Positions 3,235 to 26,449 of a stretch of 26,449 nt of DNA are shown piece by piece. The position numbers were made by a program, and so were the translations under genes. Origin of the DNA: a virus; IMG/VR virus record IMGVR_UViG_3300032240_001487, positions 1-26,449 of that record; one strand, given 5' to 3'. The notes beneath the pieces are model-generated. The model had not been told where the DNA came from. It saw only the letters and a list, made by a program, of their open reading frames with translations, and did no database searches. Each line of letters opens with the position of its first letter. Position 1 is the first letter of the stretch.

Positions 3235-4014
3235 ATGGCAAAAAAAGCCCCTAAGAACAAGAAAACCAAACCTGCGGGAATCACAATCCCACAACTAAAA
3301 CAAGAAATCAAATTTAAAGAAAGAAAATTTAAGTTTTCAGATAAGCAACAAGACTTATTAAAAATACTTTTAAACGAGCAGACCAAAATCTCTTTCATCG
3401 CTGGACCAGCGGGAACATCAAAGACATTTATGGCTGTTTACGCAGCATTAAACCTCATTAGTAACAATGATAAAGAAATTATTTACATCAGAACAATCGC
3501 AGAGAGTGGAGAAAAGTCTCTAGGTGCACTACCCGGAACAGTTGGTGACAAATTCCAACCTTACCTGATTCCTCTTGAGGATAAAGTTCATGAAATTATT
3601 GAAGTTACTGATGCTCACCGTCTTAAAGACGATGGAAGACTTACAGCAGTACCAGTAAACTTCCTAAGAGGCAGCACATTCACTGATAAAATTATCATTG
3701 CTGACGAAGTGCAAAACTTTACAGCTAAAGAGATTACAACTCTCTTAACTAGAATTGGAGAAGGCACAAAAATCTTTTTATGCGGAGATTTTATGCAATC
3801 GGACATTAAAGTTAAGAATGGTTTCCTCGATTTTTTTGATCTTTTCACTGGAGAAGACTGCATGGAGAAAGGAATCTATACTTTTGAGTTCTCTGAAGAA
3901 GATATTAAAAGAAGCGAAATCTTAAAATTTGTTGTAAAGAAGATTAATAACATTAATCTCCGTTATAGAATAAAAGATGAGCAGCGCAACGTCAAAAACG
4001 TCTCAGTTGAATAG
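3235..4014 (+). CDS. phoH: PhoH-like P-loop ATPase
   Basis: PhoH-family ATPases are common in phages and are thought to be RNA-associated helicase or nuclease-linked ATPases; their phage role is unresolved. Here Walker A is GPAGTSKT at residues 57-64 and Walker B is IIIADEVQN at about 153-161. Between them lies the family block TIAESGEKSLGALPGTVGDK, and after them the sensor-like FLCGDFMQSD. The length of 259 residues fits the phage PhoH family, with a Lys-rich N-terminus ahead of the core. The final 38 bases overlap the next gene. Serine replaces the usual glycine in the P-loop (GTSKT instead of GTGKT), which may be a family variant and should still bind ATP. Confidence 0.93.
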   Translation: MAKKAPKNKKTKPAGITIPQLKQEIKFKERKFKFSDKQQDLLKILLNEQTKISFIAGPAGTSKTFMAVYAALNLISNNDKEIIYIRTIAESGEKSLGALPGTVGDKFQPYLIPLEDKVHEIIEVTDAHRLKDDGRLTAVPVNFLRGSTFTDKIIIADEVQNFTAKEITTLLTRIGEGTKIFLCGDFMQSDIKVKNGFLDFFDLFTGEDCMEKGIYTFEFSEEDIKRSEILKFVVKKINNINLRYRIKDEQRNVKNVSVE

Positions 4015-4322: not shown

Positions 4323-4700
4323 ATGGCTATCACTTTCTGTTCATCGTGCGGCGCAAAACATGAGTATGTAGGATTTGCACCAAACTTTTGCTCGAAATGC
4401 GGCAATCCCTTTAACTCAAAAGCTATTCAACAGCCAACAGTAAAAGCACAGCAGAAACCAACTGCTATTCGTGGTTCGCAAGTAGAAGACGATGACGAGG
4501 ATTCTTCGGATATTGAGGAGCTTCCACACATAGAGTCGTTAGACGTTGAAATCGAAATGGAAGGAGGGTTTAAATCCTTCAACCTAGAAGATCTTCAACG
4601 GAATCCCATGCAAGCGCAAGCTAGAAAGTTTAAAGCAAAGCGTTCTGATGGTATTGATGGCCTATCTCCTGAAAAATATGGAAGCTCTAAAGCTGGGTAA
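4323..4700 (+). CDS. zinc-ribbon protein, 125 aa
   Basis: Two CxxC pairs, FCSSCG at residues 5-10 and FCSKCG at 22-27, form a compact zinc ribbon of the kind found at the start of many phage and host regulatory proteins. It is followed by a low-complexity Gln/Lys linker, an acidic stretch (VEDDDEDSSDIEEL) and a C-terminal part (DVEIEMEGGFKSFNLEDLQ) that may fold separately. The ATG at 4323 is preferred over a TTG in frame at 4299, because the TTG would overlap the upstream gene. The gene overlaps the start of the sigma-like gene. A role in binding nucleic acid or polymerase is plausible from the neighbour but is inference. Confidence 0.78.
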   Translation: MAITFCSSCGAKHEYVGFAPNFCSKCGNPFNSKAIQQPTVKAQQKPTAIRGSQVEDDDEDSSDIEELPHIESLDVEIEMEGGFKSFNLEDLQRNPMQAQARKFKAKRSDGIDGLSPEKYGSSKAG

Positions 4701-5385
4701 AATCACTTACGACGATAAGAAAGATGTAATAGACAAAATCATTGAGAAGCACAGATATATCTGGCAGCTCAAAGCTATTTGTTGGATGGATTACGAAGAT
4801 GTTGCACAGATTGTGCGCTTTCACATCTCAAAGAAGTGGCATATGTGGAAGCAAGATCGCCCACTTGAACCTTGGGTCGCTAGAATAACTTCTAATCAGA
4901 TTAAAAATCTGCTTCGCAATAATTATTTTAACTATACTCGCCCATGTTTAGGCTGTAAGTTTAATCAAGGTAACGAACCACCAGCTTGTTCGATTACGCC
5001 AAGCGGAAGACAATGCTCTGAGTGTCCTTTATATAGAAAATGGGAGAAAACAAAGAAGAGTGCATACGATGTTAAGCTTTGTGTGTCTATCGAAAGTCAT
5101 ACAGATGCTGTTCATTCAATGCGAGATCAGAATTTTGACATTTTATCTAGCGCCGCCCGCCTTCACGAAGAAATGAGATTGTACTTAGCTCCTAAACAAT
5201 ATAGAGTTTATACGAGACTTTTTGTTGATGGAGTAGATGAAGAAAAAGTAGCTGCTGAAATGGGTTATAAGACAAATGAGAAAGGCAAAAAAGCTGGATA
5301 CAAACAAATCAAAAATCTTAAGAAGCTATTTAGGCAAGTAGCTTTAAAAATTTTACAATCGGAGGACATTTTAAGTGGAAGCTAA
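4678..5385 (+). CDS. sigma-70-family-like factor, candidate phage late sigma factor
   Basis: Residues about 30-85 read like sigma region 2: CWMDYEDVAQIVRFHISKKW, then RPLEPWVARITSNQIKNLLRN. This is the helix pattern that binds core polymerase and the -10 element. Residues about 170-227 (LAPKQYRVYTRLFVDGVDEE, VAAEMGYKT, then a recognition-like helix) read like region 4. Between them is a cysteine cluster at about 90, 93, 104, 113 and 116, a probable zinc-binding insert. T4 gp55 shows that phages use small sigma factors for late genes. The start is uncertain: ATGs at 4648, 4657 and 4678 are in frame, and 4678 gives the shortest overlap with the zinc-ribbon gene. No good Shine-Dalgarno separates them. 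Confidence 0.75.
   Translation: MEALKLGKITYDDKKDVIDKIIEKHRYIWQLKAICWMDYEDVAQIVRFHISKKWHMWKQDRPLEPWVARITSNQIKNLLRNNYFNYTRPCLGCKFNQGNEPPACSITPSGRQCSECPLYRKWEKTKKSAYDVKLCVSIESHTDAVHSMRDQNFDILSSAARLHEEMRLYLAPKQYRVYTRLFVDGVDEEKVAAEMGYKTNEKGKKAGYKQIKNLKKLFRQVALKILQSEDILSGS
5361..5377 (+). promoter_or_regulatory. strong ribosome binding site fixing a GTG start
   Basis: A GGAGG sequence just upstream of the GTG at 5375, inside the end of the sigma-like gene, decides the start of the 358-aa gene. It is one of the strongest Shine-Dalgarno matches in the window. Confidence 0.65.
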
Positions 5386-6451
5386 AGAAGAAGCAACAGA
5401 TATTTCTTTTACAAACGAAGAAGCAGCAAAAATTAGAGACTTAGCCAAACAATTTCCTGATTTAAATACTATCACGCGCAAATTCTTTGCTAACGAAAAG
5501 CTAGATGGTCGATCTAAACAAGGAATCGCCATCAGATCATTCTTAGCGAGCAATAAAATTTCTTACAAAACATCAAAGTACGAGAAAGCGGCGGATATTC
5601 AATTTACCGATTCTCAAAAAGAGTTTATTATTGACCAGACAGCTATTGGACTGTCGGCAGTTAGAATTGCAGAACTTCTTTTTCCTGATCGTAGAATCGT
5701 TAACCTTGGAGTTGAGCAAAGAGCTGTTGCAAATTTTGTTAGAACTGCAAACGTTGAAGGCCAACTAGAATCTGAAACTGCTATTGGGGTAAAGTATTTA
5801 GTTCCACGTTCTGTTGAGCGTGTGGTGAATAAAATTAATCAAGCTACTGGCGAAAAAATTGATAAAGAAAAACTTAGCCGTCAACATAAGATGTGTATTG
5901 AGAAGCTAACAATCCATTTAGCTAACTCTCGGTTCCAAAAGATCATTAATTGTTATACGTCTCAAGAAGATCGTGATATTTTTGAAGAAGAATTCATTAG
6001 AATGACTTGGGATAAGCCGGACCTTACTGCTGACGAAGTTAATTTGTACATGAACGTGTGCAAAGAAATCATTAACTTAGAAACTACTTCAAGACACTTA
6101 GATAAGCTCAATAAAATGTTTGAAGATACTCAAGAGCAGAACGAAATGAGTATTCGTCTTGCGGAAATCATCAAAGCAAAAAGCGGCGAGTACCATCAAT
6201 GCGAAGGTCGCGTCGAAAGTCTTATCAAAAAACTTCAAGGCGACAGATCAGGACGCATTAACGCTAAACAAAAAGAAAATGCTTCTATCTTAGCTATTGT
6301 TCAGCTATTTCAAGACGAAGAAGAGCGCGCTAACATGATCAAGATCGCAGAAATGCAAAAGACTCTTGTTAGAGAAGAAGCTGGCAAGCTTGAAAGCATG
6401 GTAGAGTGGAAAGCTCGTATCTTGGGCATATCATTAGATGATGCCGTTTAA
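5375..6451 (+). CDS. conserved phage protein, candidate small terminase or packaging/regulatory protein, 358 aa
   Basis: The start is GTG at 5375 with a GGAGG upstream, overlapping the sigma-like gene by 11 bases. The first 125 residues seem to hold two related helical modules: one with FTNEEAAKIRDLAKQF and KLDGRSKQGIAIRSFL, one with FTDSQKEFIIDQTAIGLSAVRIAELLF. Both look like DNA-binding helix bundles. The rest is long and helical, with coiled-coil character at about residues 235-340. Position directly upstream of a nuclease and the large terminase makes a small-terminase or packaging role attractive, but small terminases are usually much shorter. I recall similar proteins in T4-like environmental phages, without a proven function. 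Confidence 0.7.
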   Translation: MEAKEEATDISFTNEEAAKIRDLAKQFPDLNTITRKFFANEKLDGRSKQGIAIRSFLASNKISYKTSKYEKAADIQFTDSQKEFIIDQTAIGLSAVRIAELLFPDRRIVNLGVEQRAVANFVRTANVEGQLESETAIGVKYLVPRSVERVVNKINQATGEKIDKEKLSRQHKMCIEKLTIHLANSRFQKIINCYTSQEDRDIFEEEFIRMTWDKPDLTADEVNLYMNVCKEIINLETTSRHLDKLNKMFEDTQEQNEMSIRLAEIIKAKSGEYHQCEGRVESLIKKLQGDRSGRINAKQKENASILAIVQLFQDEEERANMIKIAEMQKTLVREEAGKLESMVEWKARILGISLDDAV

Positions 6452-7412
6452 GTGCAAAGAATGTAATCAAGATTTTTCAAGCGAACGCAGTCTTCATACG
6501 CACTTGAAGAAGCATAAGATGTCGCTTGGAGACTACTACTGTGCCCATTACCCGAAGAAAAACCTCTTAACTGGTACAAAGTTAAGCTTCAAGGATAAAG
6601 AGTCTTATTTTGAAAAGGATTTTGAGAACAGAGAACAGTTATTGAAGTGGTGTAACTTTGAAAAAGCAGAAGTTGTTAAACCGTACATCAAAGAGCTACT
6701 TAAAAAGCGTATCACTAACAAAGAATTAGCTGTTGCGCCTAGTCATATCGAAATTGAGACAAGCGAACTGCCAAGCATTGACTGTTTCAAGAAACATTAC
6801 GGTTCTTATTCAGCAGTTTGTTCTGAGATTGGCGTAAAACCAATGTTCTCTAAAAATATTCACAAAGATTTTTACTTAGATCACTCTAACGTTAATATAT
6901 TCATTGATACAAGAGAGCAACAGCCATTACAGTTCAAAAATCAAAGAGAAGTTAAACTAGATTTTGGAGATTATACCGCTGGTGGTCAAAATTACTCTAA
7001 AACATTTGTCGATAGAAAATCAGAAAATGATTTTAAAAGCACTTTAGTTAGTGAAAATTTTGATAGGTTTAAAAGAGAGATCGAAAGATGCAAATCTATG
7101 GATTGTTTCTTATTTATTGTAGTAGAGTCTAGTTTTGATCAGATCAAAAATAATAATGACTTTACTCCTCACAAATCTAACCTAAAATTTGTATATCATA
7201 ATATGCGTTTGCTGCAACAAGAGTTTCACAAGAACTGTCAATTTGTTTTTTCTGGTAACAGGAAAAATAGTATAGCGTTAATACCTAAACTTCTCGTTTG
7301 CGGCCCAAAACTTTGGGAAACAGACGTTCAATACTTCATAGAAAAGGATCAATCATGGCTTGGATCGTTGGCGACCAAAAAAGAAAAAGCGTTTACAATA
7401 GCAATAAAGTAA
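6438..7412 (+). CDS. C2H2 zinc finger / ERCC4-type nuclease
   Basis: Three parts are visible. Residues 6-26 form a classical C2H2 finger (C6, C9, H22, H26). Residues about 108-135 (ELPSIDCFKKHYGSYSAVCS, then EIGVKP) resemble the small DNA-binding repeat found beside homing-type nucleases. Residues about 151-215 match an ERCC4 (XPF/Mus81) nuclease core: IFIDTREQQPL, LDFGDYT and VDRKSENDF, which carry the acidic residues and the (E/D)RKxxxD signature. Asp replaces the usual Glu before RK. Such nucleases cut branched DNA or nick duplexes. The gene overlaps its upstream neighbour by 14 bases and the terminase by 58. ATG at 6438 or 6441 may start it. Roles in resolving replicating DNA before packaging, or in mobility, are both possible. 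Confidence 0.85.
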   Translation: MMPFKCKECNQDFSSERSLHTHLKKHKMSLGDYYCAHYPKKNLLTGTKLSFKDKESYFEKDFENREQLLKWCNFEKAEVVKPYIKELLKKRITNKELAVAPSHIEIETSELPSIDCFKKHYGSYSAVCSEIGVKPMFSKNIHKDFYLDHSNVNIFIDTREQQPLQFKNQREVKLDFGDYTAGGQNYSKTFVDRKSENDFKSTLVSENFDRFKREIERCKSMDCFLFIVVESSFDQIKNNNDFTPHKSNLKFVYHNMRLLQQEFHKNCQFVFSGNRKNSIALIPKLLVCGPKLWETDVQYFIEKDQSWLGSLATKKEKAFTIAIK

Positions 7413-11279: not shown

Positions 11280-12893
11280 ATGGCGTTTAAGTATAAAACG
11301 AAATTGGATAACATTTCTGTGGCTTGTCACAAAGTCGGCAGTAAAGATTTCCAAATTTCTAAAGCTTCTCTTGACGAGCTGAAAAAGCTCTCTCCAAATA
11401 TCAACTTTGAAGATAATCCTGATTTGTTAGGAGTATCTTTTAACTTAGCTGTACCAAATATGGTCAACCATAACGGCGATGGTATTTCTGGAGCTACTGC
11501 TGCCAAAATTGCAAAGAGATTTGTTAATAAATACTTAAATATTGAGCATAATAAGAAGCGCGTTATTGGTCATATCACTAACTATGGATTTAATAGATTA
11601 AGTGATAACACTCCAATGTCAGAAGAAGAAGCTGGTAAAACATTAGATCCATTTTATTTATCAGTCGCAGGAGTTATTTATAAAACAGTAGATTCATCTT
11701 TTACTTCGTTGATGATTCGCAATTCTGATCCTGCTGATTCATTCAAAAACTCGATTTCAGCAAGTTGGGAAATTGGTTTTAGCAGTTATTATTTAGCTGT
11801 TGGAAGTGAAAATTTAAAAGAAGCAGATATCATTACTGATCCAGAAACGATTGCAGAATACTCGAAATATTTAAAGTGCAGAGGTGGTAACGGAAGACTT
11901 CAAGATGGCACTGTTATCAATAGAGTTATTGTTGGAGAAATCTATCCGTTAGGAGGAGGATTCACTACAAATCCAGCTGCACAAGTTAATGGCGTAGTGG
12001 CATTTGATTCCAACGTTTCAGTCTCATTGCAAGATTCCGAAGACCAAACTACAGAGGAACAACAACAAGATTTAGAGATGCAAGATTCATCAAATGATTA
12101 TCGTCATGAAGTGATGGCATTTTTGGCGAATAAAAAATCAAATTCCATTTTAGAGATAAAAAATGTAAAAAATATAAACCATATGGACTTAGAAAAACTT
12201 ATCGTAGAACTCAAGAGTGCTCTTCTTGAGAAAAAGTTCGGTGAAGAAGCTGTCGCTTCAATGACCAGCCAATTCACAGAAGCTATCAAACAAAAAGACG
12301 CAGAATACCGCGAGTCTCTCGCTGCTGAAAAAACTGCTAAAGAACAAGCTCAGAAGCTTTACGACGAAACCGTCGCTTCTGTTGAACAAATGAAAGCTTC
12401 TTTAGCGGCAACTCAAGAAGAGTTAAACAAAATTAAAGAACAGAAGACTCAAGAAGAAGCCGTTGCTCGCCTCAATGCTCGCGTTAGCGAACTTGATGCT
12501 GCTTACGAACTCTCTGATGAAGACCGCAAGGTTATCATTGGCGAAGTTCAAGCTCTTGACTCTGTTGAAGAAGCTTTTGCTTCTTACAAGGAAAAATTTG
12601 GTGTTGTATGGAAACACAAGAACAAAGACTTCATCAAGGCGCAAGCCGCTGAAATCGAAAAGAAGATTTCAGAACAAGTTGAAGCTCGTCTTAAAGAAGT
12701 CAGCAAAGCCTCTGTCGCTACCGTTGTTGAAACAAAGATAGAAGAAAAGAAAGCTGATATCACAGCCGCTCTTGAGAGCGCTGTCGCCACAAACACCGCG
12801 CCAGATAGCTCTGTATCTGTCGAAATCAACTTCCGCGATAAGTTTGCACAAGCTTTTTCGCGTGAAAACATTAGCGTAAGCTATTCTAAATAA
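11280..12893 (+). CDS. prohead protease fused to scaffold (core) protein
   Basis: The N-terminal part (about residues 1-235) looks like a prohead serine protease: NMVNHNGDGI, LNIEHNKKRVIGHI (candidate catalytic H90 or H98) and NSISASWEIGF (candidate Ser 158-162). It would mature the capsid proteins. After a Gln/Glu-rich linker at about 252-275, the region from about residue 302 is a long charged coiled coil (MDLEKLIVELKSALLEKKFG onward) typical of head scaffold proteins, ending in a small basic segment. T4 uses separate genes 21 and 22; here both lie in one frame of 537 residues. An in-frame ATG at 12183 with an AT-rich leader probably also yields free scaffold. The start is 3 bases after the portal stop. 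Confidence 0.82.
   Translation: MAFKYKTKLDNISVACHKVGSKDFQISKASLDELKKLSPNINFEDNPDLLGVSFNLAVPNMVNHNGDGISGATAAKIAKRFVNKYLNIEHNKKRVIGHITNYGFNRLSDNTPMSEEEAGKTLDPFYLSVAGVIYKTVDSSFTSLMIRNSDPADSFKNSISASWEIGFSSYYLAVGSENLKEADIITDPETIAEYSKYLKCRGGNGRLQDGTVINRVIVGEIYPLGGGFTTNPAAQVNGVVAFDSNVSVSLQDSEDQTTEEQQQDLEMQDSSNDYRHEVMAFLANKKSNSILEIKNVKNINHMDLEKLIVELKSALLEKKFGEEAVASMTSQFTEAIKQKDAEYRESLAAEKTAKEQAQKLYDETVASVEQMKASLAATQEELNKIKEQKTQEEAVARLNARVSELDAAYELSDEDRKVIIGEVQALDSVEEAFASYKEKFGVVWKHKNKDFIKAQAAEIEKKISEQVEARLKEVSKASVATVVETKIEEKKADITAALESAVATNTAPDSSVSVEINFRDKFAQAFSRENISVSYSK
12164..12185 (+). promoter_or_regulatory. candidate internal start for separate scaffold protein
   Basis: Inside the protease-scaffold gene an AT-rich stretch (roughly 12121-12182) contains TGTAAA at 12164-12169 and leads to an in-frame ATG at 12183, codon 302. 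The protein from there starts MDLEKLIVELKSAL, like a free scaffold. No strong Shine-Dalgarno is visible. Confidence 0.5.
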
Positions 12894-12928: not shown

Positions 12929-13549
12929 ATGGCTATTCGTCTCTTACCATTCCGTCAACTCAACGAGTTTGACGTGGTCAATATGTACGCCCTTGTTGAC
13001 GCTGCCGTTAACGAGAGCACAACAGGCGTTGGCAGCGGTGACGCAGGTGTTTTCGTTAAAGTTTCCGCAGGTAACTTTGACTTAGACCCAGTTTCATACG
13101 CTTCTGACTCATACCTCGGCAAAACCGATTACCCACACATCGGCGCTGCCCAATATCCAAAGGTTAACCTCAAGGTTACCCCAGCCGCCTCTGGCGATCT
13201 CACAAACTGCCTCGGAATCACACTCCGTCAAACTGCTAAAACAGATGAAAACGGCGAAAAGCTTCTCTATTACCGCCAAAAAGCGGAAGAGCTGATGTGC
13301 GTTCTCCCTGGTCAAGCTGTTCCAGTCGCTACTCGCGGTATCTTCTCACTCGGCGCTAACGCCATCGACGGTACTCTCACAGTTGGCTCTGGCTTCAAAC
13401 TTTCCGCCAATGGTGGTAAAGTTACAGGCTGCGCTCACAGTGACGCTGGCAAACTCGGCCTTGTTCTTGGAACAGGCTCACGCACAACTCTTAACGGTAT
13501 CGCTGACCAATTCAATGGTGGCTTTGCTGTCGTCGGTCTGCGTATGTAA
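12929..13549 (+). CDS. probable head decoration/stabilisation protein
   Basis: This 206-residue protein is Gly-, Ala- and Val-rich with a beta-sheet pattern and no catalytic motif. The block LPGQAVPVATRGIFSLGANA (about residues 130-149) resembles small capsid-decorating proteins that trimerise on the shell. It sits directly between the protease/scaffold gene and the major capsid gene, the usual place for such a protein. It shares with the capsid gene a clear preference for C-ending codons, as expected for a protein made in large amounts. An AAGGA site seven bases before the ATG supports the start. Another minor capsid role cannot be excluded. Confidence 0.7.
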   Translation: MAIRLLPFRQLNEFDVVNMYALVDAAVNESTTGVGSGDAGVFVKVSAGNFDLDPVSYASDSYLGKTDYPHIGAAQYPKVNLKVTPAASGDLTNCLGITLRQTAKTDENGEKLLYYRQKAEELMCVLPGQAVPVATRGIFSLGANAIDGTLTVGSGFKLSANGGKVTGCAHSDAGKLGLVLGTGSRTTLNGIADQFNGGFAVVGLRM

Positions 13550-13583: not shown

Positions 13584-14723
13584 ATGAAAATCACATTAAA
13601 GCGCACACCAGAACAGATTGAGCTTATCAAAGCTATGGCTAGCCGCAACCGTACCGTCGCTTACGACGCGCAAGTTGCTCTCGCCTCCTTCATTGGACCT
13701 GTACTTGCAGAAGTTATCAACAACGCTCCTACACTGAGCAACTTGTTCACAACTCTGCCATTTAACGCCGATGACAATCCTAGCATCCCGCTCGACCTCT
13801 ACTTCGACATTAACGACGAAGACTATATCACAGTATATTCTCAGTCCGTCGCTGGTGGTCTTCCAACCAATCAAGTTCTCCCAACCACATCCGAACTGAA
13901 AGTTGCTACTTACGGCCTTGACAGCGCTCTGTCGTTTGATCGTAAATACGCCGCTAAACATCGTATGGACATTGTTGCGAAAACATTCACCCGCATGGCT
14001 CAAGAAGTTCTCTTGAAACAGGAACGCACTTCCGCTTCGTTGGTAATGGCCGCTCTTGCTGCCGCTTCCACAAACGGCAAGCAACACGTTCAAAAAGCTA
14101 ACCAAGCTGGTCGTTTCCTCTTGGCTGACTTGAACGAACTCCTCACACTCGCCAAGCGTATCTCCACATCGTGGGCTAACGGCACTCCTGCTGGTGGCGC
14201 TCGCGCTGGTTTGACCGACATTCTGGTTTCTCCAGAAATCGTTGAGCAAATCCGCTCGATGGCTTATAACCCAATCAACACCGTTGCTGGTATCACACCT
14301 TCTGGTGGTTCGGGCACTACAGTTGGCATTCCTGCCACTGACGAAATGCGCTCGGCTATCTACGGCGCTAGTGGTATCCCAAGCTTCTACGGTGTCTCGA
14401 TTCTTGAGTTTATTGAAATGGGCAAAGGCCAAAAGTTCAATACCATTTTCGACACTGCTGCTGATGTCACAACCTTCACAAAGGCTGATGGCACAAGCTC
14501 TGGTGACTTCACTGGTTCTACCCAAGAAATCATCGTTGGTATTGACCGCAGCCGCGAGTCTCTCCTTCGTGTTGTCGCTACCGATCCAGATTCCAACTCG
14601 GAATTTACGCTCGTTGCTGACGACCAATACAGCATCCGCCAAAATAAGATCGGTTATTTCGGCTCGATGGAAGAAGGCCGCATCATTCTTGACAATCGCG
14701 CCCTTGTTGGCAAGATTGTCTAA
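13584..14723 (+). CDS. major capsid protein
   Basis: The 379-residue protein has the layout of an HK97-fold capsid subunit: a helical N-terminus, a long extended segment (PSIPLDLYFDINDEDYITVY), a helical spine (RKYAAKHRMDIVAKTFTRMA) and a P-domain/A-domain region with DILVSPEIVEQIRSMAYNP. It ends with a beta-rich C-terminus (QNKIGYFGSMEEGRIIL). The order portal, protease/scaffold, decoration, capsid supports the call. Codons are strongly C-biased compared with most other genes here, as expected for the most abundant virion protein. An intrinsic terminator follows 19 bases after the stop. I see no separate delta domain, in keeping with the separate or fused scaffold upstream. Confidence 0.88.
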   Translation: MKITLKRTPEQIELIKAMASRNRTVAYDAQVALASFIGPVLAEVINNAPTLSNLFTTLPFNADDNPSIPLDLYFDINDEDYITVYSQSVAGGLPTNQVLPTTSELKVATYGLDSALSFDRKYAAKHRMDIVAKTFTRMAQEVLLKQERTSASLVMAALAAASTNGKQHVQKANQAGRFLLADLNELLTLAKRISTSWANGTPAGGARAGLTDILVSPEIVEQIRSMAYNPINTVAGITPSGGSGTTVGIPATDEMRSAIYGASGIPSFYGVSILEFIEMGKGQKFNTIFDTAADVTTFTKADGTSSGDFTGSTQEIIVGIDRSRESLLRVVATDPDSNSEFTLVADDQYSIRQNKIGYFGSMEEGRIILDNRALVGKIV

Positions 14724-18915: not shown

Positions 18916-21417
18916 ATGGGAGTTTACCATCTAGGAGCAAGTCCGCAACAGATTGATTTTCAAATCGTCGATGTTGATACTGGCATTTTCTTAAATGCAC
19001 AGAGCGGTATATCCTATGATGCAACTCGTTTAAGCGGTCAGCTTTCATCTTACTATACAGACGCATCTCATTTAACTGGTACTTTAAATTTATCTTCTGG
19101 TATTTTTAGTACATTAGATGTTGATTCGTTTATTAGAAATGTATCAACTAAGTTCGTTGATTATACAGTTTCTACTGCTGACGATGTTATCATCTCAAGT
19201 TCAGCTGATCCAAAGACAATTAGTTTAATCTCTGCTTCTGGCAACGCTGGAAGACAGTTTGTAATCAAAAATAAAGGAGCTGGAACTGTTACTGTTAATG
19301 CTTCTGGAGTTGGTCAAATTGATGGGGCGAACACTTATTCTTTGCCGCAATATCAATCTATCGCTGTATTTAGTGATGGATTAACTTGGAACGCTGATGC
19401 TGGTAAACAAGGTATTCAAGGTATCCAAGGAATTCAGGGAACTCAAGGTCTGCAAGGACCGCAAGGTACTCAAGGAGTTCAAGGCACACAAGGCGTGCAA
19501 GGCGTGCAAGGTACTCAAGGTTTGCAAGGACCACAAGGTACGCAAGGCATACAAGGAACTCAAGGAATTACTGGTTCTCAAGGAATTCAAGGCGTGCAGG
19601 GAACACAAGGTATTACTGGTTCGCAAGGTGCAATAGGATCGCAAGGAACTGAAGGGCTTCAAGGCGTGCAAGGAACGCAAGGAGTTCAGGGAACTCAAGG
19701 AAGAACTGGTTTGCAAGGAGCAACAGGAGTAACTGGAGCGCAAGGAACTACTGGAGCTACAGGCGCGCAGGGAACAACTGGCACTAACGGTTCGCAAGGC
19801 ACTTCTGGTACTAATGGTTCGCAAGGCACATCTGGCACGAACGGCACGAACGGCACGAACGGCACAAACGGCACGAATGGTTCGCAAGGCGCGACAGGAG
19901 CAAGCGTCACAGGCGCACAAGGCACCACAGGCGCGCAGGGAACTTCTGGCGCAACAATTTTAGGAAACTCAAATACTTGGACAAATACCAATACATTTAA
20001 TTCTGGTATAACAATTGGAAAGAGCGGAACTGATTCGACAATTACCTTCCCAGCGCAAGCAAATGATCCGGGTTACATTAAGCATTACGAAAGCAATAAT
20101 ACTGCGATTATGTATTTTAATGCCTCTGATGATAGTAATGATTTTTTTTATTTTGGATATACTGGAGATACAGGAACATTTAGAGTAAGAACAGATGGTT
20201 ATCTATACACTCCATTTATTTATGATTTAAATGATACTAGTTATTATGTAAATCCAAATGGTACTTCGGTTCTTGCAACATTAAATGTTGGAACAATAAA
20301 CGCTACTAATAGTAACGGTAGAATTATAATGACTGGCAATCTTCATATAGATGCCTTTAATGGAAACGATTTATATTTAAATTATTACACTACCGCAAGA
20401 ACACGCGCGTATGTAAATACAGTTGAAAAATTTAGAGTTGATACAGATGGTATTGTTTACGCATTTGATCAATTAAGATCACCAATTTTTTACGATAATA
20501 ATGATACAGCATACTATTTAAATCCAAATGGCACATCAAATGTATATGCAATGGTTTCATATTCTTTGCAAGGTAATGGAAATGTAGGTGGTACAGGTTC
20601 CGCTTCTTGGCATCCATCTGGTATTTATTCAGCAGGATTTAATTGGTTATATGGTGGTATCAACGCTGGCGGAAGTAGCGTCACTAATATGAGTGAAGCT
20701 AGAGCAAATATTTTTTACGATTATAATGATTCATCTTATTATTGTGATCCTAATGGTACATCTAGAATTGGCGGTATTCAAATATCAGCCGCCAATGCAG
20801 GATCAACTGGAAATGGTATCAGATTCTATGGACTCAGTGGAGATGGAGCAGGATCATATAATCACGGCGCAATAATTGAAAGATTATGGGGAGATTCCGA
20901 TCAATCTGAATTATTAATTTTTAAAGGTAATGATCCAGATACATCAACTATTCACGATAGAATTCGTATAGCTGCAACAGGAAGAATTGTATTCCATTCT
21001 TTAAATAATTATATTGATGTTGATGGATATATTTCTGGAAATACAGGAAATATTAATGGTTCAGGTTATTTTAATGGAAATGATTTAATTGTAACTGGTA
21101 ATGTTACTGCATATTCTGATATCAAGCTAAAAGAAAATATTAAATTAATTGAAAATGCAGTTAGTAAAGTAAAACAGATTGATGGTGTTACATATAATAG
21201 AAATGATTTGGACGATAAGACACGTAGATATACAGGTTTGATTGCGCAACAAGTTGAAAAAGTTTTACCTGAAGCTGTAGAAAAAGATGAAGCTGGTTTA
21301 AGAAACTTAGCTTATGGTAATATGGTTGGTCTCCTCATTGAAGCAATTAAAGAGCAGCAATCAACTATCGAATCATTGATGCAACGCATTTTAGTGCTAG
21401 AAAACATTAAAAACTAA
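18916..21417 (+). CDS. tail fibre with collagen-like stalk and S74 autocleaving chaperone, 833 aa
   Basis: Domain order: an N-terminal attachment module (MGVYHLGASPQQIDFQIVD); a beta domain with ISASGNAGRQFVIKNKGAG; a collagen-like Gly-X-Y stalk at residues 163-347; a shaft with three repeats of the type YDxNDTxYYxNPNGTS; and a C-terminal Peptidase_S74 intramolecular chaperone from about residue 734 (SDIKLKENIK, then TGLIAQQVEKVLPE). S74 domains trimerise fibres and cleave themselves off just before the Ser of the SDxxLK motif, here Ser734. The start has no good Shine-Dalgarno. The collagen part uses Gln as the Y residue in most triplets. The closest family is host-recognition fibre or tailspike; the receptor is unknown. 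Confidence 0.9.
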   Translation: MGVYHLGASPQQIDFQIVDVDTGIFLNAQSGISYDATRLSGQLSSYYTDASHLTGTLNLSSGIFSTLDVDSFIRNVSTKFVDYTVSTADDVIISSSADPKTISLISASGNAGRQFVIKNKGAGTVTVNASGVGQIDGANTYSLPQYQSIAVFSDGLTWNADAGKQGIQGIQGIQGTQGLQGPQGTQGVQGTQGVQGVQGTQGLQGPQGTQGIQGTQGITGSQGIQGVQGTQGITGSQGAIGSQGTEGLQGVQGTQGVQGTQGRTGLQGATGVTGAQGTTGATGAQGTTGTNGSQGTSGTNGSQGTSGTNGTNGTNGTNGTNGSQGATGASVTGAQGTTGAQGTSGATILGNSNTWTNTNTFNSGITIGKSGTDSTITFPAQANDPGYIKHYESNNTAIMYFNASDDSNDFFYFGYTGDTGTFRVRTDGYLYTPFIYDLNDTSYYVNPNGTSVLATLNVGTINATNSNGRIIMTGNLHIDAFNGNDLYLNYYTTARTRAYVNTVEKFRVDTDGIVYAFDQLRSPIFYDNNDTAYYLNPNGTSNVYAMVSYSLQGNGNVGGTGSASWHPSGIYSAGFNWLYGGINAGGSSVTNMSEARANIFYDYNDSSYYCDPNGTSRIGGIQISAANAGSTGNGIRFYGLSGDGAGSYNHGAIIERLWGDSDQSELLIFKGNDPDTSTIHDRIRIAATGRIVFHSLNNYIDVDGYISGNTGNINGSGYFNGNDLIVTGNVTAYSDIKLKENIKLIENAVSKVKQIDGVTYNRNDLDDKTRRYTGLIAQQVEKVLPEAVEKDEAGLRNLAYGNMVGLLIEAIKEQQSTIESLMQRILVLENIKN
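19402..19956 (+). repeat. collagen-like Gly-X-Y coding repeat in 833-aa fibre
   Basis: About 185 codons of Gly every third residue, mostly GTQ, GIQ, GVQ and GLQ, then GAT and GTN. Glycine and glutamine codons vary from unit to unit so the DNA is not a simple perfect repeat, except for the tandem 9-mers near its end. Confidence 0.95.
19834..19878 (+). repeat. 9-base tandem repeat, five units
   Basis: GGCACGAAC occurs three times in a row, followed by GGCACAAAC and GGCACGAAT, encoding five Gly-Thr-Asn triplets. Slippage here would change stalk length in frame. Confidence 0.9.
20217..20766 (+). repeat. three coding repeats of a YDxNDTxYYxNPNGTS shaft motif
   Basis: Near-copies occur at about 20217-20270, 20487-20540 and 20708-20766. 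Each encodes a short segment with Y-D, N-D-(T/S), YY and PNGTS. Spacing is unequal, so they mark domain boundaries in the fibre shaft and are not simple tandem units. Confidence 0.85.
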
Positions 21418-21910: not shown

Positions 21911-24900
21911 ATGGGTAAATACTACTTAGGTTCTCAAGTTGGTTCGCAGGTAAATTTCTCTGTAGCAGATGCTACTGGAGTTATTACTGATCTTAATTTA
22001 AGTGGTCTTTATCTTAGCAAAACTGGTCGTGCAGTTGATTCAGCTGCTCTTGAAGGAAATAATGCGGCTTATTATAGAAATGCTGGTAACTTAACTGGTT
22101 ATTTATTTGTTGATGAAACAGGAATTGCAAATGATGTTATTAATCAAATTGATCTTCCGCATAACTACCTTTCAATTACTGGTAAAGCTGCCGATTCTAA
22201 TCTTTTAGATGGGTATGATAGTTCCTTTTTTAGAGATGGAAATAATATTACAGGAAATGTAGTATTAAGCGGCGTTTTTACTGGTTTATTTAGCGGCGCA
22301 GTATCTCATACTGATTATGTTGATTTTCATACTGGAACAACATTTGGTTCACTTCCAGCTCGTTTGAAATGGAACGAATCTGATGGAACAATTGACCTTG
22401 GATTAAAAGGTGGAAATGCAGTTATTCAAATTGGGCAAGATAATGTTTCTTATGTATCAAATGCAGAAGCAACAACAATCAATAAAGGTGAAGTTGTTTA
22501 TCTTTATGGATCACTTTCTGATCATGCTTCTGTAAAAAGAGCTTCTAATACTCAGTTATTAACATCTTCAAAAGTTCTTGGTTTTGCTTTAGAATCAATT
22601 CCTCCAAGTGGTTTAGGATTTGTAATATCAGACGGTATTATTGATGGATTAAATCTCAGCGGATATTCTGCTGGTCAAGAAGTTTGGTTAGGATCAACAC
22701 CCGGCACTTATACTACAACTAAAGTAGTTGCTCCGGCTCATGCAATTTTAATTGGTACAATTACAAAAGCAGTAAATGTAAGCGGCGAAATTTTTGTTAA
22801 AGTTGTTGATGGAACCGATTTAGTTGACGTACATGATGTAGCTATTACTGGTTTAGCTAATAACGACTTTTTAATTTATAATAGTGGCTCTGGTCTTTGG
22901 GGTAATAAACAAGCTTCTGCTTCTATTATTGTTAATAATCCGTATCAAGGAATTTCTTCTACTAATGTTCAGGCTGCAATCAACGAATTAGAAAATGAAA
23001 AACTTTCTATCAGCGGAAAAGCTGTTGATTCAGATTTATTAGATGGAAATGATTCTACTTATTTTAGAAATGCCGCAAATTTAACTGGCGTTGCTACTCT
23101 TCCTTCTGGTTTCTTTAATTATCTTAATGTTACTGGAACTCTTGACGCTGATTCTTTTGTAAGAAACGTAAGCGTAAAAACTGGAAATTATATTTTAACA
23201 ACAAGTGACGATAACATTGTTTTCAATGCTTCTGTTCCAGTTACAGCAACTTTAATTTCTGCTTCTGCAAATGCTGGTCGTCAATTTGTTCTGACAAATA
23301 AATCTGCGTCTATTGTTACTGTTGATGCAACATACAATGGACAGATTGATGGCGCTAATGCTTATTATTTAGCTCAACATCAAACTCTTGTTTTAATTAG
23401 TGATGGAACAACTTGGAATTCTGCTTCTGGCTCGCAAGGCGTTCAAGGTATTACTGGTATTCAAGGTACGCAAGGAGTTCAAGGACTTCAAGGCGTTCAG
23501 GGAACACAAGGCGTACAAGGCACACAAGGAATTCAAGGAGTTCAAGGTTTGCAAGGCATTCAAGGTACTCAAGGAGTTCAAGGTTTAGTTGGACCTTCTG
23601 GTGCTGGTGGAACAATTGGTTATTACGGTTCATTTTATTCTACTACTAGCCAACTAATGGTTTCCGCCACTGGCGCTCAGGCAATTCGATTTGATAGTAC
23701 AAATATTGCAAATGGAATTTCAATTGCATCTAACGGAACTTATCTTACTAGAATTACATTTGCTCATGAAGGTATTTATACTTTAAATTTTGCTGGACAA
23801 TTGATTGATACTAATAACTCTAATCCAAATGTAGAACACGTTGCTACTTTTTGGTTAGTTAAAAATGGAGTTAACGCTTTAGCTACAACATTTGATACAC
23901 TAGTAAGCAAAAATGTTCCTACTCTTACAAATTGGCAATATCAATTTAATGCTGCAAATAATGATTATTACGAAATTTTCTGGAATGCTGATAACACAGC
24001 TGTAGAACTTGGTTATATTGGAGTTTTAAATAATCCAACTAGACCAACTGTACCTTCTGCTTATATTAATATTGATCAAGTTACTTATACTCAACTTGGC
24101 GCTCAAGGCGTGCAAGGTATTAGCGGTATTCAAGGAACTTTTGGTACTCAAGGTATAGTTGGCGCTCAAGGTATTCAAGGCGTTCAAGGAACAACTGGAA
24201 TTCAAGGCGCACAAGGTCTGCAAGGAGTTCAAGGAACTCAAGGTTTACAAGGAGTTCAAGGAGTTCAAGGCGTACAAGGTACGCAAGGAGTTCAAGGTGT
24301 TCAAGGTCTTCAAGGATTACAGGGTATTCAAGGAATAACTGGTATTCAAGGACAAACTGGTTCTCAAGGTACACAAGGAATTCAAGGAACTCAAGGAGTT
24401 CAGGGAACTCAAGGAGTTCAAGGTACACAAGGTGGACAAGGTATACAAGGAGTTCAAGGCAACCAAGGTACTCAAGGCGTGCAAGGCACTCAAGGTATCA
24501 CAGGCTCGCAAGGCACAACTGGCTCACAAGGCACTCAAGGAATCCAAGGTGTTCAAGGAACTCAGGGAGTTCAAGGTACTCAAGGTATCACTGGCTCTCA
24601 AGGTACAACTGGCGCTCAAGGTACTCAAGGCACTCAAGGTGTTCAAGGAACAACTGGTTCTCAAGGCACTCAAGGAACTCAAGGTACTCAGGGCACACAA
24701 GGTGTTCAAGGTGACAGAGGTATTGAAATTTCTACTTCTGCACAAGCTCCAGTTTCTGCTAATGTAAACGATCTTTGGTGGAATTCTACTGACGGTAATT
24801 TAAATATTTATTATAGTAATAACTGGGTAGAAGCTTTCTCTGCTATCGCTGGTCCTCAAGGTACAACTGGCTTGCAAGGTTTAACTGGAACGCAAGGATT

Positions 24901-26449
24901 AGCTGGAACATTTGGCGGCGCTGCTTTTGATTATACTTTTAGTGATTCAGTAACTGATTCTGATCCTACCACTGGCAAACTCCGTTTAAATAACGCTTCA
25001 TTCTCTTCTGCTAGCACATTATATATTAACGAAAATGATGACTTAAGTGTTTCTATATATAATTTCTTACAAACTATTGATGATTCTACTTCTGCGATCA
25101 AAGGTCACTTTACAATCACAGAAAAAACAAATCCTTCAAATTTTGTTTTATTTAGTATCACTGGAAATCATACTCATGCGACAAATTATTTTAAAGTACC
25201 AGTAAGTAAAATATCTGGAGTAAACTCGTTATCTAATAATGCTGATATTGTAATTACTTTTGCTAGAACTGGTGACGTTGGTGACACTGGTGCTCAAGGT
25301 ACACAAGGATTGCAGGGCGTTCAAGGATTGCAAGGCGTTCAAGGAACGCAAGGTGTTCAAGGATTGCAAGGCGTTCAAGGTACTCAAGGAATTACTGGTT
25401 CGCAAGGAGCAACTGGTTCGCAAGGCACTCAAGGTATCACAGGTTTACAAGGTGCAACTGGTTCGCAAGGCACTCAAGGTGTTCAAGGCGTTCAGGGTAC
25501 GCAAGGAATACAAGGAGCAACTGGTTCACAAGGAACAACTGGTAGCCAAGGAACTCAAGGTGTGCAAGGCACTCAAGGTATCCAAGGTATTACAGGTTTA
25601 CAAGGTACACAAGGAATTCAAGGTATAACTGGCGCTCAAGGTACAACAGGAGTAACAGGCGCTCAAGGAACTCAAGGAATTCAAGGCGTACAAGGTACGC
25701 AAGGTATTCAAGGAATTATAGGTTCACAAGGAACAAATGGTACTCAAGGAACTCAAGGAGTTCAAGGAACTCAAGGAGTTCAGGGAACTCAAGGTATTCA
25801 GGGACTACAAGGCGTACAAGGAACTCAAGGCGTAATTGGTTCTCAAGGTACTGCTGGATATATTGGTTCTGATGGCGCTCAAGGTCGTACAGGCGCTCAA
25901 GGTATTCAAGGATTACAGGGCGCTCAAGGTCTTAAAGGTACACAAATAACAACGCAAGATTCTGCTCCAGTTTCTGCAATTGTTAATGATCTCTGGTGGA
26001 ATTCTGTTACTGGTGTATTAATGATTTATTACTACGATGGCGACACTTACCAATGGGTAGATGCTGCTGCTGGCGTAGTTGGTTCACAAGGAGCTACTGG
26101 CGCTCAAGGCGCAACTGGACCACAAGGCGCAACTGGTGCTCAAGGAACTCAAGGAGTTCAAGGCACACAAGGTCTTCAAGGTTTACAAGGTCTTCAAGGT
26201 GTTCAAGGTGTTCAAGGTAGAACTGGACCACAAGGAACAACAGGTTCTCAAGGTATTACTGGTCAAACTGGTTCTCAAGGAGCAACTGGAGCAACAGGAA
26301 ATACAGGCGCTCAAGGAACTTCTGGCACAAATGGAACAAATGGAACCAACGGCACAAATGGAACTCAAGGTGCTGCTGGATCTAACGGAAGTAATGGATC
26401 ACAAGGTGCAACAGGATCAACTGGCGCAACAGGCGCAACAGGCTCAACA
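21911..26449 (+). CDS. giant collagen-like tail fibre, partial (C-terminus beyond right edge)
   Basis: The frame is open from ATG 21911 to the window edge, 1513 codons without a stop. Domain order: attachment module (MGKYYLGSQVGSQVNFSV); repeats of the type DSxLLDGxDSxxFR; a beta domain at about residues 190-301 (INKGEVVYLYGSL); a spacer with ISASANAGRQFVLTNKSAS, also in the 833-aa fibre; collagen tract 1 (507-566); a jelly-roll-like domain (567-729, with HEGIYTLNFAGQL); tract 2 (730-936); a NDLWWNS module; short tract 3; a beta domain (about 1001-1120); tract 4 (1121-1345); a second NDLWWNS module; tract 5 from 1388 to the edge. About 640 residues are Gly-X-Y, mostly with Gln as Y. Such stalks form trimeric rods. 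The receptor-binding tip probably lies beyond the window. Confidence 0.9.
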   Translation, partial: MGKYYLGSQVGSQVNFSVADATGVITDLNLSGLYLSKTGRAVDSAALEGNNAAYYRNAGNLTGYLFVDETGIANDVINQIDLPHNYLSITGKAADSNLLDGYDSSFFRDGNNITGNVVLSGVFTGLFSGAVSHTDYVDFHTGTTFGSLPARLKWNESDGTIDLGLKGGNAVIQIGQDNVSYVSNAEATTINKGEVVYLYGSLSDHASVKRASNTQLLTSSKVLGFALESIPPSGLGFVISDGIIDGLNLSGYSAGQEVWLGSTPGTYTTTKVVAPAHAILIGTITKAVNVSGEIFVKVVDGTDLVDVHDVAITGLANNDFLIYNSGSGLWGNKQASASIIVNNPYQGISSTNVQAAINELENEKLSISGKAVDSDLLDGNDSTYFRNAANLTGVATLPSGFFNYLNVTGTLDADSFVRNVSVKTGNYILTTSDDNIVFNASVPVTATLISASANAGRQFVLTNKSASIVTVDATYNGQIDGANAYYLAQHQTLVLISDGTTWNSASGSQGVQGITGIQGTQGVQGLQGVQGTQGVQGTQGIQGVQGLQGIQGTQGVQGLVGPSGAGGTIGYYGSFYSTTSQLMVSATGAQAIRFDSTNIANGISIASNGTYLTRITFAHEGIYTLNFAGQLIDTNNSNPNVEHVATFWLVKNGVNALATTFDTLVSKNVPTLTNWQYQFNAANNDYYEIFWNADNTAVELGYIGVLNNPTRPTVPSAYINIDQVTYTQLGAQGVQGISGIQGTFGTQGIVGAQGIQGVQGTTGIQGAQGLQGVQGTQGLQGVQGVQGVQGTQGVQGVQGLQGLQGIQGITGIQGQTGSQGTQGIQGTQGVQGTQGVQGTQGGQGIQGVQGNQGTQGVQGTQGITGSQGTTGSQGTQGIQGVQGTQGVQGTQGITGSQGTTGAQGTQGTQGVQGTTGSQGTQGTQGTQGTQGVQGDRGIEISTSAQAPVSANVNDLWWNSTDGNLNIYYSNNWVEAFSAIAGPQGTTGLQGLTGTQGLAGTFGGAAFDYTFSDSVTDSDPTTGKLRLNNASFSSASTLYINENDDLSVSIYNFLQTIDDSTSAIKGHFTITEKTNPSNFVLFSITGNHTHATNYFKVPVSKISGVNSLSNNADIVITFARTGDVGDTGAQGTQGLQGVQGLQGVQGTQGVQGLQGVQGTQGITGSQGATGSQGTQGITGLQGATGSQGTQGVQGVQGTQGIQGATGSQGTTGSQGTQGVQGTQGIQGITGLQGTQGIQGITGAQGTTGVTGAQGTQGIQGVQGTQGIQGIIGSQGTNGTQGTQGVQGTQGVQGTQGIQGLQGVQGTQGVIGSQGTAGYIGSDGAQGRTGAQGIQGLQGAQGLKGTQITTQDSAPVSAIVNDLWWNSVTGVLMIYYYDGDTYQWVDAAAGVVGSQGATGAQGATGPQGATGAQGTQGVQGTQGLQGLQGLQGVQGVQGRTGPQGTTGSQGITGQTGSQGATGATGNTGAQGTSGTNGTNGTNGTNGTQGAAGSNGSNGSQGATGSTGATGATGST
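22037..23080 (+). repeat. three DSxLLDGxDSxxFR-type coding repeats
   Basis: Copies at about 22037-22090, 22186-22240 and 23018-23075 encode variants of A-x-D-S-x-L-(L/E)-(D/G)-G-x-(D/N)-S/A-x-(Y/F)-(Y/F)-R, a motif common in phage fibre proteins. The first copy is the most diverged (DSAALEGNNAAYYR). Confidence 0.8.
23429..23608 (+). repeat. collagen-like tract 1 of the giant fibre
   Basis: Sixty codons with Gly every third residue, mainly GVQ, GIQ, GTQ and GLQ. It follows the spacer domain shared with the 833-aa fibre and precedes a jelly-roll-like domain. Confidence 0.93.
24098..24718 (+). repeat. collagen-like tract 2 of the giant fibre
   Basis: About 207 codons of uninterrupted Gly-X-Y with Gln predominant at Y and Thr, Val and Ile at X. 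One interruption-like unit reads GTFGTQ. It ends at GDRG before the first NDLWWNS module. Confidence 0.95.
24851..24913 (+). repeat. collagen-like tract 3 of the giant fibre (short)
   Basis: Twenty-one codons of Gly-X-Y (GPQGTTGLQGLTGTQ and on) between the first NDLWWNS module and a beta domain. Confidence 0.85.
25271..25945 (+). repeat. collagen-like tract 4 of the giant fibre
   Basis: About 225 codons of Gly-X-Y, the longest complete tract in the window, starting GDVGDTGAQ and ending GLKGTQ. X is mainly Thr, Ile, Val, Ala or Ser; Y is mainly Gln or Thr. Confidence 0.95.
26072..26449 (+). repeat. collagen-like tract 5 of the giant fibre, runs off the right edge
   Basis: At least 126 codons of Gly-X-Y. 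Near 26327-26362 it contains a GTN run (four Gly-Thr-Asn triplets) like that in the 833-aa fibre, and then shifts to GAT and GST triplets. Confidence 0.93.

Follow-up and report, generated by a model that had tools for sequence, protein, structure and literature searches.

The window analyzed here is the whole stretch of 26,449 nucleotides taken from a viral record (IMG/VR record IMGVR_UViG_3300032240_001487, positions 1 to 26,449). It includes a head gene cassette in which a protease and a putative scaffold are encoded in one open reading frame, joined by a variable linker and followed by two further genes (Table 1). The first of these was taken for a decoration protein in the original prediction; the second is the candidate for the major capsid gene, named from its position. 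Elsewhere the window carries a gene for a PhoH-like ATPase (3235-4014), a sigma factor-like gene, an ERCC4-type nuclease gene with an N-terminal C2H2-like zinc finger (6438-7412), which lies between the sigma-like gene and the terminase gene, and two long collagen-like tail-fiber genes (18916-21417 and 21911-26449). One of the tail-fiber genes has Collagen and Peptidase_S74 domains, and the other runs past the end of the window.

Table 1. Features of the protease-scaffold locus and associated genes, in coordinates of the window.
Feature	Position	Strand	Basis
Phage sigma factor-like protein, candidate promoter reader	4648..5385	+	PF04542 Sigma70_r2, 24.5 bits (cut-off 24)
Fused protease-scaffold ORF, 537 aa	11280..12893	+	One open fused ORF at 324/326 loci with both domains
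Protease domain, residues 1-250, T4 gp21/herpesvirus assemblin fold	11280..12029	+	AlphaFold model, pLDDT 82.8
Variable linker, carrier of the embedded promoter-like element	12030..12182	+	Alignment
DNA element constrained at synonymous sites	12129..12197	+	Codons 283-310, synonymous change observed/expected 0.13
Upstream (-30/-35 type) box ATTCCATT	12142..12149	+	Invariant in the window's clade; recurs before the MARNRVIYQ gene
-10-like box ATGTAAA	12163..12169	+	(A/G)TGTAAA enriched in pre-gene gaps; GTA codon in 104/104
Predicted transcription start, ~7 nt past the -10-like box	12174..12178	+	Box position
Internal start codon ATG302 of the putative scaffold	12183..12185	+	104/104 representatives
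Putative scaffold made from the nested start, 236 aa, largely long helices	12183..12893	+	Helices in low-confidence model; position relative to protease and head genes; codon shift
Next gene, putative decoration protein	12929..13549	+	Synteny
Major capsid candidate	13584..14723	+	Synteny and conservation

Relatives of the fused gene were collected from viral contigs. A scan of these contigs yielded 55 loci with 73-95% identity, and more distant cassettes were located with capsid and protease profiles. The whole-family set comprises 104 non-redundant representatives, 86 of them from a distant clade with approximately 40-45% protease identity to the window; the representatives share ancestry, so that counts among them are not independent trials, and all relatives are uncultured contigs. 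No relative of either the fused protein or the capsid protein was found among 50,697 phage records. Relatives of the head cassette (L208-L212) fall in metagenome bins assigned to Flavobacteriaceae, Verrucomicrobiales, Rhodospirillales and Patescibacteria; such binning is an unreliable guide to the host. The in-frame fusion is continuous at 324 of 326 loci, and both exceptions (L135 and L171) come from IMGVR_UViG_3300027140_000053, where alone the protease-scaffold frame is broken, probably through a local sequence error or mutation. In each of the 104 representatives, frame 0 is open and frames 1 and 2 are stopped, which indicates that the fusion is also maintained, alongside the DNA signal described below.

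Neither half of the fusion was recognized by sequence-profile searches. The protease had no match in Pfam, PHROGs or PDB, and its link to a known family is thus by fold only. A full-length model built from 13 close sequences reached a pLDDT of only 45 and gave an uninformative PDB search; it was replaced by a model of the protease domain built from 46 sequences. In VIA-align comparisons the best match to this model was T4 gp21 (5jbl; Z 9.6 over 133 residues, 3.2 A), the herpesvirus proteases scored Z 7-9 (Z 9.1 for the VZV protease), and unrelated rows scored 6.0 or less. Foldseek ranked the herpesvirus proteases first, and the BFVD matches were prohead proteases. Candidates for the catalytic histidine and serine are H90, H98, S160 and S162, which are invariant across the 46 sequences. 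As modelled, the protease half of the fusion folds like T4 gp21 and herpesvirus assemblin.

Its position, its predicted helices and its place before the head genes point to the second half of the fusion as a scaffold. The original prediction had also reported a change in codon choice past 12183, toward the C-ending codons of the capsid and decoration genes. Codon usage over the gene is indeed non-uniform: the third-position ratio C/(C+T) rises from 0.25 in the protease half to 0.44 in the scaffold (Fisher p = 8e-4), and the scaffold has the higher value in 90 of 104 relatives. The rise is graded, though, since the next two genes have ratios of 0.55 and 0.53 and the scaffold is thus intermediate, below the level of the capsid gene.

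Codon 302 had been singled out as an ATG preceded by an unusually AT-rich, leader-like stretch containing TGTAAA. Both the ATG and TGTAAA (12164-12169) are present as described, and the 54 nt before the ATG have a GC content of 14.8%. None of the 22,037 other coding 54-mers in the window is as low, and such values occur in 0.05% of all 54-mers. Loss of the ATG in relatives would have counted against an internal start; it is retained in all 52 close relatives compared and throughout the 104 representatives, down to about 40% amino acid identity.

The DNA around this codon is conserved at its silent sites. Among close relatives, synonymous change in codons 283-310 is by far the lowest in the gene, with values of about 1 elsewhere. 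Silent sites are frozen from 12129 to 12197 although close relatives share only about 70-75% of the nucleotides of this gene; the constraint sets in sharply at 12129 and ends at about 12197. This span would roughly match the footprint expected for RNA polymerase on a promoter. Near-invariant in close relatives, silent positions included, is the pattern AATAAAAAATCAAATTCCATT..(variable codon)..ATAAAAAATGTAAAAA(AT/CT/CA)ATAAACCATATGGACTTAGAAAAA. In the window's clade the signal before ATG302 consists of two boxes, ATTCCATT-N13-ATGTAAA. In the distant clade, TTTC(A/C)C-N16-TGTAA precedes the ATG in 86 of 86 representatives, with TTGCAC in place of TTTC(A/C)C in two and CGTAA in place of TGTAA in a few. 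The boxes of that clade lie exactly 16 nt apart, whereas the distance from the TGTAA box to the ATG is 19, 25 or 28 nt. Of the 215 codons that could be tested, those with the lowest synonymous ratios fall inside the two-box element. The valine codon in the box is GTA in 104 of 104 representatives, compared to 26% gene-wide. TATAAAC at 12173 was considered as a -10 box and rejected, as relatives show ACAATAAAC or ACTATAAAC at this position while TGTAAA is constant. The leader predicted for the window's clade is only about 7 nt long and has no Shine-Dalgarno sequence; neither GGA nor AGG occurs in the 50 nt before 12183.

The same signal is found at a second locus. In the window's clade, the exact ATTCCATT-N13-ATGTAAA pair is found once more in each large contig, in the gap ahead of a gene for a protein that starts with MARNRVIYQSEALYV (the MARNRVIYQ gene); the boxes there are constant between genomes and the spacer has diverged. 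Distant-clade genomes have that clade's form, TTTCA(C/T)-N16-TGTAA, before the same gene. The second site is non-coding in all 17 genomes examined and in most cases follows immediately on the stop codon of the gene before it. It lies 24-38 nt upstream of the ATG; in the distant clade this distance (24-28 nt) is the same as at the scaffold site. Few further matches to the two-box signal were detected genome-wide. The type of box shifts in step at the two loci between the clades, as expected of one factor reading two sites and not of a linker peptide. The MARNRVIYQ gene is a tentative candidate for the tail tube, as 1 of 14 members matches Phage_tube_2 (E 0.0095).

The boxes resemble no characterized promoter, and the label "promoter" therefore rests on comparison. 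Because the same signal, in its clade-specific version, precedes one other gene in non-coding DNA, the most fitting reading of the element is a late promoter within the fused protease-scaffold gene, followed by the scaffold's own start codon. A candidate for its reader is the sigma-like protein of Table 1, which may recognize the embedded promoter. In relatives this family is encoded roughly 7.6 kb upstream of the scaffold site, at the same relative place in both clades. We rate as about even the chances that the boxes form a promoter class of their own, which a phage sigma factor or activator recognizes and which serves just two genes, the scaffold within the protease gene and the tail tube-like gene, with boxes that have co-changed between the clades.

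The -10-like box has a wider distribution than the pair. The sequence (A/G)TGTAAA is enriched several-fold to tenfold or more in the gaps before genes, often just 6-8 nt from the ATG; instances in the window are the gaps before 2067, 2437, 14815, 15770 and 16846, and others were noted at L057-L075. Given this enrichment, TGTAAA is probably a general late -10 box, one letter different from the T4 late box TATAAAT. Its placement only 6-8 nt before start codons suggests that some late transcripts could be leaderless.

Taken with the comparative evidence, these features make it quite probable that two products are made in one frame: the fusion and a free scaffold, the latter from an embedded phage late promoter with ATG302 as its first codon. 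A long transcript from upstream would give the full-length protease-scaffold fusion. A second transcript would arise from the promoter in the linker, starting near 12176, and its first codon, ATG302, would yield scaffold free of protease. This transcript probably continues into the two following head genes, so that scaffold and shell protein would be made in excess of protease. The reader of the promoter is probably a phage-encoded sigma factor or activator, and the same factor would serve one other structural gene, the candidate tail tube gene.

The next gene and the capsid candidate are possibly both read from the embedded promoter. A TGTAA box before the next gene is not above chance in the distant clade (4 of 79), while 16 of 17 close and 27 of 77 distant relatives have a separate TGTAA motif for the capsid gene, so that control of the capsid gene by the embedded promoter is uncertain. 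The preceding gene (upstream of 13584 and in relatives) often ends in ATGTAAT in the close clade or TTGTAAC in the distant clade. Such an ending could conceal a further -10-like box across the stop codon, the arrangement seen at T4 gene 21.

Internal initiation of translation on one long mRNA, of the lambda C/Nu3 or Mu type, would also give a free scaffold; the unstructured, A-rich leader and the conservation would then belong to the initiation region. The ATG and first codons are conserved, with GAA at +3 frozen, the RNA around the start is unstructured, and nested scaffolds with internal starts are common among phages (PMC2628397). Against this, the window lacks a Shine-Dalgarno sequence, the same pair of boxes occurs in a non-coding gap before another gene, and the strongest constraint falls on two boxes, 19-50 nt upstream, that keep a fixed spacing of 16 nt but stand at varying distances from the ATG. 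We regard internal translation alone as unlikely.

Conservation of a peptide in the linker, such as a site for binding or for protease cleavage, could likewise account for conserved nucleotides, with scaffold freed by self-cleavage only. The peptides KISQN/NVK and KKSNSI/KNVK do recur, and L/I-x-E is the cleavage site of gp21-type proteases (PMC9026906). However, silent positions are frozen here: valine is invariably GTA and serine is never TCT, although TCT makes up 37%. The peptides moreover differ between the clades, whereas the DNA pattern persists and recurs outside coding DNA, and this explanation is very improbable. A DNA site unrelated to transcription (packaging, replication origin or recombination) is likewise very improbable. 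Most large contigs do hold two copies in opposite orientation, but both copies are directed toward a gene whose start codon is 19-38 nt away, their spacers differ, unlike recombination cores, and one of their boxes is TGTAAA, which is enriched in the gaps ahead of many genes. RNA structure at the site was rejected on fold z-scores of -0.5 to 2.0; with no downstream structure, and with the two slippery-like heptamers of the window's clade absent in that form from the distant clade, a programmed frameshift at the A6 runs (A_AAA_AAT) that would end the protease product early was rejected as well, its probability being negligible.

The original prediction of a nested, separately started scaffold within the protease gene of a T4-like head cassette has strong comparative support. 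It had drawn a parallel to lambda C/Nu3, where the nested scaffold is made by internal translation. That parallel holds for the in-frame nesting at the 3' end of the protease gene, which is shared also with Mu-like phages and KS10/BcepMu, and fails for the two-box, promoter-like DNA element that is also found before another gene. In KS10, a Shine-Dalgarno sequence (AGGA) precedes the start of the scaffold gene and no promoter was reported there (PMC2628397); the present site has promoter-like boxes and no Shine-Dalgarno sequence. The order of genes and the protease fold are those of T4 genes 21-22-23. T4, however, has separate protease and scaffold genes, and its TATAAATA late box overlaps the stop codon of gene 21, 35 nt ahead of gene 22; here the stop codon is gone and the putative promoter lies within an open linker. 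The T4-type late promoter also consists of TATAAATA alone, in contrast to TGTAAA with an upstream box at fixed spacing.

As the conserved signal resembles a promoter and the protease half folds like assemblin, the mechanism comes closest to that of herpesvirus UL26/UL26.5 (assemblin protease and scaffold ICP35), closer than to the internal translation start of lambda C/Nu3. In HSV-1, the UL26.5 promoter lies inside the UL26 portion of a fused ORF, and the transcripts are 3'-coterminal (PMC2949831; PMC4498786). Shared with this system are the protease fold and the 3'-terminal, in-frame nesting of the putative scaffold within the protease ORF; a promoter inside the protease coding region, as the comparison suggests, would be a further parallel. 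The differences are that the present virus is a phage, that its promoter would be of a bacterial two-box type, and that transcription is likely to run on into the head genes. These phages would thus combine the promoter position of T4 with the fused layout of the herpesviruses. In the open-access literature we found no report of an intragenic promoter for a phage scaffold, or of this combined layout in a phage.

Virus heads require many copies of scaffold and little protease. Lambda meets this need through internal translation; in T4 the two genes are separate and a promoter lies between them, and in herpesviruses the gene is fused and contains the promoter. A herpesvirus-like solution appears to be conserved in a large, abundant family of uncultured aquatic phages and would link the layouts of T4 and the herpesviruses. 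The locus would also clearly exemplify DNA in which a promoter and a protein sequence are preserved at once, and it predicts a testable pair of phage sigma factor and promoter. If the two-gene promoter class is correct, then together with the shared protease fold it would place nested protease/scaffold transcription of the herpesvirus type on both sides of the divide between tailed phages and herpesviruses.
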